The notes below the pieces were generated by a model that worked only from the letters and a program-made list of their open reading frames with translations, was not told the origin of the DNA and did not search any database. Of a stretch of 38,619 bases of DNA, positions 15,899 to 23,108 are shown one piece after another; the stretch's first letter is position 1; every line of letters begins with the position of its first letter. The translations under genes were made by a program, and so were the position numbers. The stretch is taken from contig JAHFBK010000005.1 of the NCBI GenBank assembly GCA_023250035.1, forward strand, positions 1-38,619, read 5' to 3'. The stretch comes from Candidatus Dadabacteria bacterium. Its GTDB lineage: Bacteria; Desulfobacterota_D; UBA1144; Nemesobacterales; CSP1-2.

Positions 15899-17551
15899 AT
15901 GGAAAATCTTATCCAAGAATTACGAGAGCGCCGAAAAACTAAAAGACTTCCTCTAAAACTTGATATTTTTTCAAGAGATACTGGTAAGTTAGTTGGGAGA
16001 TCCTTGAATATTTCTACAGATGGGATGTTTATTGAGACTGATAATATTTTAAAACCTGGTACCAAGGTTTTATTAGTATTTAACTTACCTGGTCAAATAA
16101 TACCCATAAAGGCTTACAGTGATGTTAGATGGATTAGAAAAAACGTGATTCCGGAGGAAGGCTGGCCTTCCGGAATAGGGATTCAATTTATAGGTATGTA
16201 TGAGGCATATAAAAGGAAACTCGAAGAATACCAAGAAAAATCCTTTTTTACAGAAGAGATAAACTCAGATAATTATACTCTAGCTGATTTTATAGAGATT
16301 TCAGACAAAGACTTATTTACAAAGACTAAACTTTTTTGGGAAGCCATAAAAGATATGACCCAGAAGGGTTTTAATACCTATAGAAGGCTATTGCTTTCTG
16401 CATGCAAGAATCGAGTGTTAGTTTGGGATGAAAAAACTGGAAAACCGAGAGAAATGATTATGATGGATAGTAACAACTATCTTGGTCTTACTGTTGATCC
16501 AAAAATGATAAAAGCAACAAAAGAAACGATAGAAAAATACGGTGTTGGTGCTGGCTCTGCTCCTCTTCTTGCAGGAACATACAATTTACATACAGAGCTA
16601 GAAGCCAAGTTAGCTAAATTAACAAGTTGCGATGACGCAGTGGTTTTCCCTACAGGATATATGGCTAATATAGGATGTATCTCGGCATTAATAAAGAGAA
16701 AAGATATAGCCATAGTTGATGATGCAGTTCATGCTAGCATTATAGATGGCTGTAAACTTAGCGAAGGTTCATTTAGAACTTTTAAGCATTCGGATACGCA
16801 GAACCTAAAGCAGGTATTGGAAAGCAGTCAAGATAAATATTTTGGAAAGCTTATAATAGTTGAAGGCATATATGGTATAGATGGTGACATGGCTCCACTT
16901 CCCGTGATCGCTGAAGTTGCCGAGGAATACAGAGCAAAAGTAATGGTGGATGATACACATGCGATAGGGGTGATTGGAGAAGATGGTAGAGGCACTATAA
17001 GCCATTTTAAAATGGAAGGCAAAATTGATATAGTTATGGGCACGCTAAGTCATGCTTTGGGTGGAATGGGAGGATTTATCGCTTCATCTCCTGAGGCAGT
17101 AAATTATCTAAGATATTATGCACGGTCATTCTTTTTCGCCTCATCTCTTCCTCCTTATCTTGCTGCCTCTGCTTTAGCTGCAATTGAAGTTATGGAAAAT
17201 AGACCAGAATTGAATCAAAACTTATGGAAAAATATTAAATATATGAAAGAGAACCTAGAATATCTCGGATTTAGGATTGGAAATTCCCAATCTGCTATAA
17301 TTTCCATTATTATTGGTAATGAGTTGCTTTTGAGACGAATGAACAAAAGACTTCACGAGGAAGGTATTTACTTGAGTGCTCTTCCCTATCCAGCAGTGCC
17401 AAGAGGCCAAGAACGTTTAAGATTAAAGCTTATGGCAACTCATATCCAGGCGGATTTAAATAGAACTTTGGAGGCCTTAGAGAAAGTCGGAAGGGAATTC
17501 GGTGTCCTAGGTAAGTCTTCTGGAACTTACACAAAAGCCTTAGTGGCATAA
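15899..17551 (+). CDS. PilZ domain fused to an alpha-oxoamine synthase-family (KBL/BioF/SPT-like) PLP-fold protein
   Basis: N-term RRKTKR (RxxxR) ... NISTDG ([DN]xSxxG) PilZ motifs; C-term SNNYLGL, GVGAGSAPLLAGTYNLHTELE, VHASIIDG, VEGIYGIDGDMAPL, VDDTHAIGVIGEDGRGT, MGTLSHALGGMGGF; SD aaggaggag. Confidence 0.9.
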   Translation: MENLIQELRERRKTKRLPLKLDIFSRDTGKLVGRSLNISTDGMFIETDNILKPGTKVLLVFNLPGQIIPIKAYSDVRWIRKNVIPEEGWPSGIGIQFIGMYEAYKRKLEEYQEKSFFTEEINSDNYTLADFIEISDKDLFTKTKLFWEAIKDMTQKGFNTYRRLLLSACKNRVLVWDEKTGKPREMIMMDSNNYLGLTVDPKMIKATKETIEKYGVGAGSAPLLAGTYNLHTELEAKLAKLTSCDDAVVFPTGYMANIGCISALIKRKDIAIVDDAVHASIIDGCKLSEGSFRTFKHSDTQNLKQVLESSQDKYFGKLIIVEGIYGIDGDMAPLPVIAEVAEEYRAKVMVDDTHAIGVIGEDGRGTISHFKMEGKIDIVMGTLSHALGGMGGFIASSPEAVNYLRYYARSFFFASSLPPYLAASALAAIEVMENRPELNQNLWKNIKYMKENLEYLGFRIGNSQSAIISIIIGNELLLRRMNKRLHEEGIYLSALPYPAVPRGQERLRLKLMATHIQADLNRTLEALEKVGREFGVLGKSSGTYTKALVA

Positions 17552-17742
17552 TACATGAATCTCCGGCTTTACCAGAGATTAGATTGATGAATCTTTTCTA
17601 CCTTTCCCTTTATTGCTGTCCTTGGTGCACACTTGCTGGCGTAAATATATGCGGTTGTAGCAAGAATCTGCGCATCTATAAAACGGGAGTTCGACAAAAA
17701 ATCTAAGAATTACGCTGATATTTTTCGAGAAAGAAGTTGCAA

Positions 17743-17758
17743 TGGCACGTATTTTGCA
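17743..17758 (+). promoter_or_regulatory. Predicted sigma-54 (RpoN) -24/-12 promoter
   Basis: TGGCACG-TATT-TTGCA matches the TGGCACG-N4-TTGCA core consensus with correct spacing; predicted +1 about 17768-17771. Confidence 0.75.
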
Positions 17759-17783
17759 CTAAAATTGCTTTAGTATTTGGTCC

Positions 17784-17873
17784 TACCGAAATTGCAAACT
17801 ATCCTTATGGATAGGACGCAAAGCCAAAGACTAAAGACCAACGACGAATACTGTGGCTGGGTTGCCGACGTAA
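17784..17873 (+). promoter_or_regulatory. GEMM-I (cyclic dinucleotide, c-di-GMP-I class) riboswitch-like RNA
   Basis: TTGCAAAC-[CTATCC TTAT GGATAG]-GACGCAAAGCCA...CTAAAG...TGGCTGGGTTGCCGACG: GCAAAC, GACGCAAAGCC, CUAA and GGGUUGCCGA motifs in order; AGCCA/TGGCT helix and P2-like hairpin. Confidence 0.85.
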
Positions 17874-17897
17874 GGTAAGTAAACTCTTATTATTAAC

Positions 17898-18674
17898 ATG
17901 ATAAAGGAGAGTAATCTCATCCGAGAATTTCAAAGAAGAAAAACTGTGAGACTCACCCTGGGATTTTGGGCAAAGTACTGTAGAACTTATGACGTCTTGA
18001 ATCGAGCGATTCCTTATCAGGAGTTACTAAGGACTCTCTCTGAAGAACTAGAAATTCGGCCAGGAGAGTTCATTTTGGAAGCTGGATCAGGGACTGGGAA
18101 CTTAGTTCTTGAAATAGAAAAATATAGAGCAATGGTTGTTGGTTTTGACTTTTCTAAGGCTGGCTTAATGGTCCACAAAGAAAAGGAGCCAGATGCACGT
18201 GTTGTCTTAGGGGATCTGGTTTGCCCTCTCCCTTTTCGAGATTGTTCCTTTGATAAGATTGTCTCTTCAAATACCCTCTATCTGATTTCTCCTGAGAAGC
18301 GGGTTAATGTGATACGGGAGTTTTTTCGGATTCTCAAGCCTGGTGGTAAAATCGTCATTGCAAATCTCATAAAGGGATTTAAACCTCGTTACATCTATTT
18401 TAACCATATCCAGAAAGTAATAAAGCAAAGGGGAATACCCTGGACAGTGGTGGAAATCTTTAGTCTTACAGTTCCAACAATCAAAATGTTCTATTATAAC
18501 TATTTCATCCAAAAAGAGGTTCGAAGGGACTGTCAATTTTTCGATCCCAATGAGCAGGAAAGGCTTTTAAAAGAGTTGGGTTTTACAAATATCTCCAATG
18601 CAAAAAGTGTTTTTTCATCCCAGGGGATTCTCGTTAGCGCCTTTAAACCAGAAGGGGAAAATGCTAAATTTTAA
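17898..18674 (+). CDS. Class I SAM-dependent methyltransferase
   Basis: EFILEAGSGTGNLVLEIEKYRAMVVGFDFSKAGL; FRILKPGGKIVIANL. Confidence 0.88.
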   Translation: MIKESNLIREFQRRKTVRLTLGFWAKYCRTYDVLNRAIPYQELLRTLSEELEIRPGEFILEAGSGTGNLVLEIEKYRAMVVGFDFSKAGLMVHKEKEPDARVVLGDLVCPLPFRDCSFDKIVSSNTLYLISPEKRVNVIREFFRILKPGGKIVIANLIKGFKPRYIYFNHIQKVIKQRGIPWTVVEIFSLTVPTIKMFYYNYFIQKEVRRDCQFFDPNEQERLLKELGFTNISNAKSVFSSQGILVSAFKPEGENAKF

Positions 18675-18715: not shown

Positions 18716-21235
18716 ATGAATTATTCTCCGAATATTTTTATTAAAAAATACTTCAAGATTATAGCCCTTATAATAGTCATATTCTCCGCTTTTATATCTA
18801 TTTATAGTTTAATTCAAGCAGTAAAGTGGATAGAAAGACCCTTTCCAGGTTTCTTACTTTATAGAAATTTAATAGTCGCTGAAGTTAGCCTGTCTCATTG
18901 GACGGGCTATAAAGGCGATTTAAAGTCTTACGATAAAATAGTAGATTTAGATGGGAGAATGATCTCCTCAGCAGATGAGGTTTACAGTATTGTTACTAAT
19001 GAACCGATTAGCACCCCAATAAATTATACTATCTCTAGGGGTAATAGGCTTATTACCCTGACTATTCCCACCATGAAATTTGAATTGGTTGATTTCCTCC
19101 TAATATTTGGTGCAGTGTATTTTGTTGGAGTAGTTTTCCTTATAATTGGGATTTTAGTTTACTATTTAAAACCCAATCTAGATTCTAGCAAAGTTTTCCT
19201 AATGGCTTGTTTCTCAATCGGGTTCTGGTTTATATCAATATTTGATACTCAGTCTACATATTCACTTTATAATATTCCATTTCTAGGTTTAGTTATTGCC
19301 CCAGCTTTTTTTATTCATTTAGCGTTTGTATTTCCCTCTAAGAAGAAAGATCACTCGATTATTCTGTTTTCTTATTTGCTCTGTTTTCTATTAGTTATAT
19401 TACACAAATTATATTTTAATTCTCAAAATATCTGGGTAAGGGCGGAGAGGTTATTCTGGCTATATGTGCTTTTTAGTGCATCAATATTTCTAATTTCTAT
19501 AATAATAACCTACCTTAAGTCGAGTTTTGCATTAGATAAACAGAGGGCCCAAGTAATATTAGTAGGATCGTTCATGGGTTTCTTTCTCCCCGCTCTTGGT
19601 GCGGTTATACTTGTTCTATTTAGATTTAGTAATCTTAACAACTTAGCCATACCTGTTATATTTTTCCCAATCTCAGTGGCATATGCTATTGTGAAGCACA
19701 AGCTCTTTGATATAGATGTAATTATTAAAAAGACTCTAGTTTATGGAAGCTTAACGGGAGTAGTAGTTGGGGTTTTCGGTTTAATGGTAATTGCTTTTAA
19801 CGTAGCTTTTGCTAATTATGGCGGTTGGAGGAATCCATTATTCTTTATAATATTAAGTGTTTTTCTTGTTATTGCTTTAAATCCCCTTAAAAATCGGATC
19901 CAGGACTTGATAGACTTAACATTCTTTAGAAAAAGATATGACTATCGTAGAACTATTGAAGAGATGAGTTCTACTCTGACCTCTCTTCTTAATCTTGATG
20001 AAATCGCTGATAAGGTTATTAATTCTGTTGAGCAAACTATGTTTTCAAATTCTGTATCTCTTATTATTTTGAATGAAAGCTCTGGAGCTTACCAAATCTA
20101 TGCTACAAGTGGAAATCCTGGTGGTGTAAGTGGACCCGTGATTAAAGAAGATTGTGAGTTAATCAGCTTACTAAACAGATCCAAAAAAGAGATTTTCAAA
20201 GAGGATTTGATTGCTGATGAAAGATATATAGTACATAAAGACGAACTTATGAAAGTCTTTAACAATTTTAATGCCGCTTTATTTATTCCTCTGTTTTTTA
20301 AGGAACAGCTAATAGGTATCTTATCTTTGGGTGAAAAGAAATCTGGTCTTCTCTATACTTCTGAGGATATAAAATTACTTCGTATTCTTGCTAATCAGAG
20401 TGCGATAGCTATTGAAAATGCCTTTGCTTATAAATTAGTTGAGGATTATGCGAAAAAATTGGAGGGGGCTAATAAAGAGCTTAGAGAAACTCAGGCACAG
20501 CTTATTCAATCAGAAAAGATGTCGGCAGTAGGACAGCTTGCAGCAGGGATTGCACACGAGATTCGTAATCCACTGAATATTATAGAGGGTGCAAGATATT
20601 ATTTATCTCAAATGATAAGCGGAGAAAATTCTAAGATTATAGGAGAGTATCTGGATTATATTAAAAGCGAGATTGATCGAACAAACCGTTTGATTGATAA
20701 CCTACTTAAATTCTCGAAAGTGGGGCCCCAGCATTTTGAGCTAGTAGATATAAACAACATCCTTGAGGACACTCTGACTCTCTTGAGAAAGCAGCTATCT
20801 GATAATAATATCAGACTTATAACAAACTTTAACTACCAGATTCCAAAAATCATGGGTGATCTAAATCAACTCTGGCAGGTCTTTATTAACATTTTAATAA
20901 ATGCTATTCAGGCAATGCCTCAATATGGAGAACTCCGAATCGATACGGGGCTTTATTACGGAAACCAAGACCGCATATTCATAAGCTTTAAAGATACAGG
21001 CTTAGGGATAGACGAGAAGGATCTTCCAAAGATTTTTAATCCCTTTTTCACAACGAAAGACATAGGAACAGGGCTTGGTCTTTCTATAAGCTATAAAATA
21101 GTTGAAGAGCATAAGGGAAGAATTATAGTAAGCAGTGAGAAGGGAAGAGGCAGCATCTTTATTTTAGAACTTCCTGTTAGTTACAGTAACAAGGGAGGAG
21201 AGGATGACCGAGAACAAAAGAGTCTTAGTAGTTGA
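18716..21235 (+). CDS. Membrane sensor histidine kinase (PDZ-like extracytoplasmic segment, multi-TM region, GAF, HisKA, HATPase_c)
   Basis: AAGIAHEIRNPLNIIEGARYYL H-box; INILINAIQAMP N-box; DTGLGIDEKDLPKIFNPFFTTKDIGTGLGLSI; GAF-like LRILANQSAIAIENA. Confidence 0.9.
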   Translation: MNYSPNIFIKKYFKIIALIIVIFSAFISIYSLIQAVKWIERPFPGFLLYRNLIVAEVSLSHWTGYKGDLKSYDKIVDLDGRMISSADEVYSIVTNEPISTPINYTISRGNRLITLTIPTMKFELVDFLLIFGAVYFVGVVFLIIGILVYYLKPNLDSSKVFLMACFSIGFWFISIFDTQSTYSLYNIPFLGLVIAPAFFIHLAFVFPSKKKDHSIILFSYLLCFLLVILHKLYFNSQNIWVRAERLFWLYVLFSASIFLISIIITYLKSSFALDKQRAQVILVGSFMGFFLPALGAVILVLFRFSNLNNLAIPVIFFPISVAYAIVKHKLFDIDVIIKKTLVYGSLTGVVVGVFGLMVIAFNVAFANYGGWRNPLFFIILSVFLVIALNPLKNRIQDLIDLTFFRKRYDYRRTIEEMSSTLTSLLNLDEIADKVINSVEQTMFSNSVSLIILNESSGAYQIYATSGNPGGVSGPVIKEDCELISLLNRSKKEIFKEDLIADERYIVHKDELMKVFNNFNAALFIPLFFKEQLIGILSLGEKKSGLLYTSEDIKLLRILANQSAIAIENAFAYKLVEDYAKKLEGANKELRETQAQLIQSEKMSAVGQLAAGIAHEIRNPLNIIEGARYYLSQMISGENSKIIGEYLDYIKSEIDRTNRLIDNLLKFSKVGPQHFELVDINNILEDTLTLLRKQLSDNNIRLITNFNYQIPKIMGDLNQLWQVFINILINAIQAMPQYGELRIDTGLYYGNQDRIFISFKDTGLGIDEKDLPKIFNPFFTTKDIGTGLGLSISYKIVEEHKGRIIVSSEKGRGSIFILELPVSYSNKGGEDDREQKSLSS

Positions 21236-23108
21236 CGACGAGCATTTGATTCTAAAAATAATCTCAGACATCCTCACAAAAGAGGGTTATGAGGTAAAAA
21301 CTGCTTTTAATTTTGACAAGGCACTTAAGCTTCTAAAGGAATATTCCTTCCATGTTGTTCTTACCGATATCCGAATGCCCGAAAAAAATGGGATAGACCT
21401 TCTAGAGAAAATCCGGACTTTTGATTCAAATATGCCTGTCATTCTTATGACGGGGTTTGCTTCTCTTGAAACCGCGGTAAAAGCAGTCCAGCATGGAGCA
21501 TTTGATTATCTCACAAAACCCCTAGATTATGATAAGCTCAAAAATGTAACAAAACATGCAGTCGAGAGATATGAGCTTCTGCAAGAAAACAGTCGACTTG
21601 TACGGGAACTTCAGGAACTAAATGCAAGTCTTGAACTCAAGGTTAGAGAAAGAACACGAGATCTCGGGAATATACTAAACAGCACTCACGAAAGCATAGT
21701 AACTATGGATAAAGACCTGATTATAAAAAGTGTAAACCCAAAAACTGTGAATATCTTTGGTGAGGCGTGCATTGGACGAAAAATCGGTGATTTTATAGAA
21801 GGTATTAACTATGACTCTATTATTCCCAAAATACTGGCTGATCCCTCTTACAGCACAAAGCACGAGGTGAAATATGGAGATAAATTTTTAGAGATCACTC
21901 TTTCTCCTCTTATTGATTTTGAAACAGGCAACATATTTGGTGTGATGGCTGTTACTGAAGATGTCACAGAGAAAAAGAAATTAGAGGCACAACTGATTCA
22001 ATCTGCTAAAATGTCTGCTGTAGGGCAGCTTGGAGCAGGGATTGCACATGAGTTTGGTAATGTTCTCTCAGTAATTGTGAGTTATACGAGCTTTGCCATG
22101 TCGAGAACCAGCATTGAGCGGATTAGAAAAGACTTAGAGGTTGTAGAAAAAGCTTCAAATAGAGCGATGGATACCGTGAGGAACTTACTTTCTTTCTCAA
22201 GACAAAAGGAGGAGAAATTTCAGCTTGCCTTGATAGAGGAAGTGATAGAAGATACGCTTTCTCTCATAGAGCATTTTTTTCAATCAGAGGGGGTAAAGAT
22301 TCTACATCATTACGGAAAGATTCCTCCTATAAGAATGAGTGTAGGTGAGATTCAGCAGGTTATACTCAATATGGCAATGAATTCAAAGCATGCAATGCCT
22401 AAAGGAGGTGTGATTGCAATAAGCACTGAGTTAGAGGGTGATTATGTAAAAATAGATTTCTCAGATACCGGGATTGGAATTCCGAAAAAAAATCTAGCTA
22501 GGATTTTTGAGCCGTTTTTTACAACAAAAGGAAGCGGTGGGAGCAGTGGAACGCCTGGCACTGGACTTGGACTCTCTGTGACTTATGCAATAGTTAAGAG
22601 GCATGGGGGGCGAATAGATGTTGACAGTGAGGTTGGAAAAGGGACAACATTTACAATACGGCTTCCAAATATTCAAAGCCTCTCCGATTGGACTAAAAGC
22701 GATTCGCTATACAAGGACGACAATAAGGTCCTACAAACAAAAAGAAAGGGAAACATTCTTATAGTAGATGATGAAGAGTTTGTCTGTGAGATACTTAGGG
22801 AATCCCTTTCGAGTGTCGGTCATAATGTTGTTATGGCAAATAACGGGGAGGCCGCCATAGAGCTTGTAAAAAGAAATCACTTTGAGATCGTCTTTCTTAA
22901 TTTAACAATGCCTGGAAAGAATGGTCTTGATGTGCTTAGGGAAATAAAGATTTTGGATCCAAGTTCAGTCGTTGTAATTATAAGTGGAAGGATAGAGGAA
23001 GATATATCAAATAAAGTAATTGCTGAAGGCGCATTTTCTTTCATACGCAAACCTTTTACAGTACCTCAAGTTTATAGTACCGTAGCGAGTATTTTGGGGG
23101 CTGAATAA
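21204..23108 (+). CDS. Hybrid histidine kinase, REC-PAS-HisKA-HATPase-REC; second REC lacks the phospho-acceptor Asp
   Basis: REC1 VVLTDIRMPEKNGIDLL; kinase GAGIAHEFGNVLSVI, DTGIGIPKKNLARIFEPFFTTKG; REC2 NILIVDDEEFV...IVFLNLTMPGKNGLDVL. Overlaps the preceding kinase ORF by 32 nt with its own SD. Confidence 0.92.
   Translation: MTENKRVLVVDDEHLILKIISDILTKEGYEVKTAFNFDKALKLLKEYSFHVVLTDIRMPEKNGIDLLEKIRTFDSNMPVILMTGFASLETAVKAVQHGAFDYLTKPLDYDKLKNVTKHAVERYELLQENSRLVRELQELNASLELKVRERTRDLGNILNSTHESIVTMDKDLIIKSVNPKTVNIFGEACIGRKIGDFIEGINYDSIIPKILADPSYSTKHEVKYGDKFLEITLSPLIDFETGNIFGVMAVTEDVTEKKKLEAQLIQSAKMSAVGQLGAGIAHEFGNVLSVIVSYTSFAMSRTSIERIRKDLEVVEKASNRAMDTVRNLLSFSRQKEEKFQLALIEEVIEDTLSLIEHFFQSEGVKILHHYGKIPPIRMSVGEIQQVILNMAMNSKHAMPKGGVIAISTELEGDYVKIDFSDTGIGIPKKNLARIFEPFFTTKGSGGSSGTPGTGLGLSVTYAIVKRHGGRIDVDSEVGKGTTFTIRLPNIQSLSDWTKSDSLYKDDNKVLQTKRKGNILIVDDEEFVCEILRESLSSVGHNVVMANNGEAAIELVKRNHFEIVFLNLTMPGKNGLDVLREIKILDPSSVVVIISGRIEEDISNKVIAEGAFSFIRKPFTVPQVYSTVASILGAE

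Follow-up and report, generated by a model that had tools for sequence, protein, structure and literature searches.

An operon in the 38,619-nt stretch of DNA analysed here (the window) is probably driven by sigma-54 and headed by a decayed GEMM-I leader. We propose that a sigma-54 promoter would drive transcription of genes for a methyltransferase, a histidine kinase and a response regulator/kinase, and that the transcript would open with a decayed riboswitch whose GEMM-I ancestor had an expanded P3. The aptamer appears to have lost the G20 contact, the P2 GNRA tetraloop, and the P3 5′ arm together with the tetraloop-receptor strand, and the leader is predicted to pair with the residual P3. 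With the aptamer decayed, expression would be governed by RpoN and by an activator encoded outside the window, and c-di-GMP would have little or no direct effect. The changes in the sequence, the synteny, the enrichment of the motif and the lack of the locus in a sister genome are observed; that the promoter is active, that binding is lost and that the alternative fold forms are predictions. Coordinates are collected in Table 1.

Table 1. Features of the leader, the operon and the region immediately upstream.
Feature	Position	Strand	Basis
PilZ domain fused to alpha-oxoamine synthase (serine palmitoyltransferase-like)	15899–17551	+	
Lipoprotein gene remnant	17602–17685	−	tblastn with G002 protein
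Sigma-54 −24/−12 element TGGCACGTATTTTGCA	17743–17758	+	Exact consensus match
Leader arm, 92% complementary to 17824–17836	17768–17780	+	Inverted repeat
Degenerate aptamer derived from GEMM-I (c-di-GMP-I, RF01051)	17783–17869	+	cmscan, order-specific model
Equivalent of Vc2 G20 (ligand contact): U	17793	+	Model alignment column
P2 hairpin CUAUCC-UUAU-GGAUAG, stem intact, GNRA tetraloop lost	17799–17814	+	Loop column counts
P3 remnant	17824–17868	+	Local alignment to expanded P3 at G002:C68
Predicted hairpin over ATG 17898 and the AAAGGAG sequence	17883–17912	+	Minimum-energy leader fold
SAM-dependent methyltransferase	17898–18674	+	Pfam Methyltransf_25 and Methyltransf_11
Sensor histidine kinase (GAF-HisKA-HATPase, AtoS/ZraS/PrsK-like)	18716–21235	+	Pfam and NCBIfam
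Response regulator/histidine kinase hybrid, two receiver domains	21204–23108	+	Pfam

The likely operon and its predicted sigma-54 promoter

The methyltransferase, kinase and hybrid genes likely form an operon, because only 42 nt separate the first two ORFs and the kinase ORF overlaps that of the hybrid. The region described in an earlier reading of this DNA, made from the sequence alone, does take in the methyltransferase ORF up to 18674. The start of this ORF is ATG 17898, or GTG 17946 judging from the homologue in G016, which is 50% identical. When the methyltransferase was used as query, a protein scan of the genome contig collection returned no relatives.

The element TGGCACGTATTTTGCA, which the sequence-only reading had picked out as a −24/−12 promoter, fits the consensus TGGCAC-N5-TTGCA exactly and with correct spacing, and is the sole zero-mismatch match in the window. 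Judging from the motif, transcription would start near 17769, 12 nt past the −12 C. The host genome (2.39 Mb in 224 contigs, 89% complete, the window being contig C107) encodes RpoN (PF04552, E 2.6e-55) and has 14 matches to PF00158, the family of sigma-54 activators, at least nine of them strong (E < 1e-60). None of the 14 lies on C107, so that the earlier statement that the window encodes no enhancer-binding protein holds. Across the genome the pattern TGGCAYN5TTGCW occurs at 21 sites and the reversed control pattern at none, and relatives show a similar enrichment over the reversed pattern.

The site shares perfect consensus and spacing with other RpoN promoters, in a genome that encodes both RpoN and activators; it differs in directly preceding a GEMM-I leader. 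Taken with the recurrence of such sites at other GEMM-I RNAs, described below, the evidence makes it very likely that the operon is under sigma-54 control.

Two further observations concern promoter sequences. Sigma-54 sites are densely clustered on contigs C46 and C203 of G000 and on contig C5 of G001, with up to 13 on a single contig in G001, possibly reflecting a large RpoN regulon. A sigma-70-like sequence that overlaps the element (TTGCAA-17-TAAAAT, 9/12) was rejected as a candidate promoter, as matches of this quality are at chance level (1 found, 1.1 expected).

Sigma-54 sites upstream of GEMM-I RNAs across the order

A sigma-54 site feeding a GEMM-I RNA is a recurrent arrangement in the order. 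For the 82 GEMM-I RNAs of the order with sufficient upstream sequence, a slightly relaxed pattern places a site within 150 nt upstream of 10, and the strict pattern does so for 6. The controls for the same 82 RNAs returned no site in antisense, none further upstream, none with the reversed pattern and one downstream, and it is on this difference (10 against 0–1) that we regard the arrangement as recurrent. Among the genes that follow the other pairs are those for the PilB pilus ATPase and for secreted proteins, one of which has a CBM96 domain. From the −12 C to the start of the aptamer match is 26 nt in the window, the shortest such distance, versus 43–79 nt in the others. In the literature that we searched, no description was found of a sigma-54 promoter directly before a GEMM-I leader.

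A GEMM-I aptamer with a changed pocket and a missing arm

The RNA elements named in the sequence-only reading are all there, and the Infernal cmscan search against RF01051 that it called for returned a significant match to the window of 45.5 bits, above the gathering cut-off of 35 (E 6.6e-6). An order-specific model, built from 20 relatives and used to align 93 aptamers (that of the window and 92 others), scores the same RNA at 56.3 bits. It is the one GEMM-I found in the host genome.

The signature listed in that reading needs correction at one base: the nucleotide preceding GCAAAC is U in the window, where GEMM-I has G20 and where all 92 aligned relatives have G. The pattern TGCAAACN{12,22}ACGCAAAG, applied to 44 genomes of the order, was found in the window alone (1/44). 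In Vc2, c-di-GMP is contacted by G20, A47 and C92, and mutation of G20 is reported to lower c-di-GMP binding 30,000-fold (PMC4744006).

P2 and P3 have also changed. Whereas the P2 loop begins with G in 90 and ends with A in 91 of the 92 relatives, it reads UUAU in the window. At 42 of 45 positions (93%) the P3 remnant is identical to one arm, the 3′ one, of an expanded P3 in the GEMM-I at G002:C68, with a local alignment score of 80, compared with 32 for the next-best aptamer. About 60 nt are absent, including the 5′ arm with the CCUAAG receptor strand, and a P2 GNRA tetraloop docking into a P3 receptor is not found in the window, where the loop is UUAU and the receptor arm is missing. A receptor score with two mismatches stems from the 3′ arm of P3 and is not positional evidence. 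The CTAAAG that the sequence-only reading counted as part of the GEMM-I signature likewise belongs, by alignment, to the relative's expanded P3 on its 3′ side, not to the receptor strand. G002 contains many copies of the repeat that builds the expanded arm, and the window's genome few. At G002:C68 the expanded P3 is formed by degenerate heptamer-like repeats (GACYAAMGACYAAMG), which are spread across G002 (25 matches; control matches, 0).

Set against RF01051 as a whole, the window RNA keeps the core sequence, including GCAAA and ACGCAAA, the P2 stem, the contacts A47 (A 17820) and C92 (C 17865), the interhelical C44–G83 pair (C 17817, G 17856), the position ahead of an operon and the score above cut-off. 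It departs from the family in U20 for G20, UUAU for GNRA and the loss of the P3 5′ arm and receptor strand. Pure drift would not favour retention of the P2 stem, GCAAA, ACGCAAA, A47, C92 and the C44–G83 pair, which counts against decay.

These retained features, the core purines among them, and the score above cut-off are what would be expected if the RNA were still a functional c-di-GMP riboswitch, possibly of lower affinity, acting with sigma-54 in AND-type control. Such a switch would also be in keeping with the canonical diguanylate cyclase of the host, with the intact sigma-54/GEMM-I pairs in relatives and with the otherwise canonical U20 RNAs found elsewhere (see below). Set against it are the loss of the G20 contact, the tetraloop and the P3 receptor arm, as well as a leader that is predicted to compete with P3 by about 9 kcal/mol, and we consider continued c-di-GMP sensing improbable.

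Predicted fold of the leader

The leader arm and 17824–17836 are predicted to form an alternative helix that encloses P2, and this helix is used in the predicted fold. The leader in the window has 11 expected pairs with the core, and none of nine other sigma-54/GEMM-I leaders has more than 1. By predicted secondary-structure energy, the fold with leader–P3 pairing is about 9 kcal/mol better than the one in which the leader is forced to be single-stranded. The leader has a folding z-score of −2.5, and shuffling it gives P ~0.03 for the complementarity. The hairpin predicted over the start codon may, speculatively, be what remains of a translational expression platform. A terminator-type platform was rejected, there being no terminator on the + strand of the leader.

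The same helix and start-codon hairpin might instead mean that the leader has been repurposed for ligand-independent control of stability or translation. The folding z-score and the absence of leader–core pairing from the nine other leaders are consistent with this, but the complementarity is weakly significant and comes from a single sequence; we regard repurposing as very unlikely.

Cyclic dinucleotides and variation at position 20

The sequence-only reading had proposed that the operon needs both RpoN and a cyclic dinucleotide. The RpoN half has stood up well: the motif is perfect and is enriched genome-wide, the genome encodes RpoN and activators, and the arrangement recurs at other GEMM-I RNAs of the order. 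The dinucleotide half is weakened by U20 and by the loss of the tetraloop and the P3 arm. Judging from these changes, direct control of the operon by a cyclic dinucleotide is doubtful, and a response to any ligand seems unlikely.

An A at position 20 is the mark of the cGAMP variant of GEMM. We rejected cGAMP as the ligand on two grounds: the U at position 20, and the canonical N/D specificity residues of the only GGDEF protein found in the host genome (89% complete). This protein is common to the host and G001, and no Hypr-type cyclase was found in the host genome at that completeness. The window RNA shares with the Geobacter cGAMP-sensing GEMM-I RNAs of the A20 type its fold family and a base other than G at position 20, but it has U20 and its host has no detected Hypr-type cyclase. 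Rare GEMM variants do sense c-AMP-GMP (PMC7266159).

GEMM-I RNAs with U20 that are otherwise canonical occur in Firmicutes, Fermentibacterota and other groups, and some precede ORFs that by eye resemble pilin or chemoreceptor genes. Such loci were picked by a search pattern that itself contains U20, and their counts are not frequencies; the wide pattern scan returned 77 stretches, some of which were then checked with Rfam and many of which are chance matches. A U at this position is thus compatible with function and is by itself no proof of loss; some of these RNAs might have another ligand. Compared with these RNAs, the window additionally lacks the tetraloop and the P3 arm.

On Fermentibacterota-type contigs, of Aegiribacteria and others (L150, L155, L158, L160, L170, L179, L184, L186 and L190; L155 is labelled Syntrophaceae), GEMM-I RNAs were seen in tandem, both copies having A, C or U in place of G20. 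These pairs precede a gene for a small secreted protein.

The recurrence of non-G20 RNAs in other phyla, including the conserved Fermentibacterota tandems, raises the possibility that the window RNA responds, through U20, to a ligand that is neither c-di-GMP nor cGAMP. Rfam has a variant model, RF03168 (c-di-GMP-I-UAU), and U20 is seen in one match to it (L153). However, the window lies below the 65.9-bit cut-off of that model, with only RF01051 reported at gathering threshold, and its lineage is not shared. In addition, U20 occurs in no near relative and the search pattern in just one of the 44 order genomes, and loss of the P3 arm would be unexpected in a working pocket. We give altered specificity a small chance. 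The wider conjecture, that GEMM-I RNAs without G20, among them the Fermentibacterota tandems and the window RNA, make up an overlooked group with some other ligand, which the operon in the window would read along with the sigma-54 signal, strikes us as a long shot.

Synteny and probable decay of the locus

The favoured reading, in which sigma-54 drives an operon whose leader has decayed, can be viewed against the gene order common to relatives: chorismate synthase, PfpI, PilZ/alpha-oxoamine synthase, kinase, hybrid kinase. Several relatives have an intact G20 GEMM-I upstream of the PilZ gene. Downstream of the PilZ gene and ahead of the kinase, G003 carries a 59-bit GEMM-I without a sigma-54 site, G005 a 20-bit relic (order model), and G016 a methyltransferase without GEMM-I. 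Together with the window (45.5 bits, Rfam), these form a graded series at one syntenic site. In G001, of the same genus as the host, both the kinase and the PilZ gene are missing and the locus is absent.

Neighbouring genes have changed too. Upstream of the promoter, the window retains only a remnant (50% over 28 aa to the G002 protein, E 2.5e-5 by tblastn) of a lipoprotein gene of which G002 and G016 have intact copies. In the PilZ-fused acyltransferase, the PLP lysine has become His (codon 385, CAT, 17051–17053), a change that needs two base changes; 12 relatives have Lys at this position, and His is found in the window's genome alone. The PilZ motifs of the protein are intact. The locus as a whole looks like one in decay.

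The slot that separates the PilZ and kinase genes varies in content (L036, L237, L238, L239), holding a methyltransferase, a conserved family of ~340–390 aa, an OleD-like NAD-dependent reductase, or nothing. The G002 member of the ~340–390 aa family has no NCBIfam match. The setting of PilZ/acyltransferase and reductase recalls, by analogy, bacterial sphingolipid gene clusters. The fusion of PilZ to a serine palmitoyltransferase-like enzyme is itself conserved across the order and would tie c-di-GMP to lipid synthesis.

Implications

The RNA in the window should be labelled a GEMM-I-derived element and not a c-di-GMP riboswitch. It passes the Rfam cut-off with pocket and arm broken, illustrating that a family match can mask a dead sensor. 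The elements found at a single syntenic position, from intact through damaged to relic, would represent riboswitch loss in progress. Elsewhere in the order, intact GEMM-I RNAs that recurrently follow sigma-54 sites and precede genes for pili and secreted proteins suggest control by two signals.
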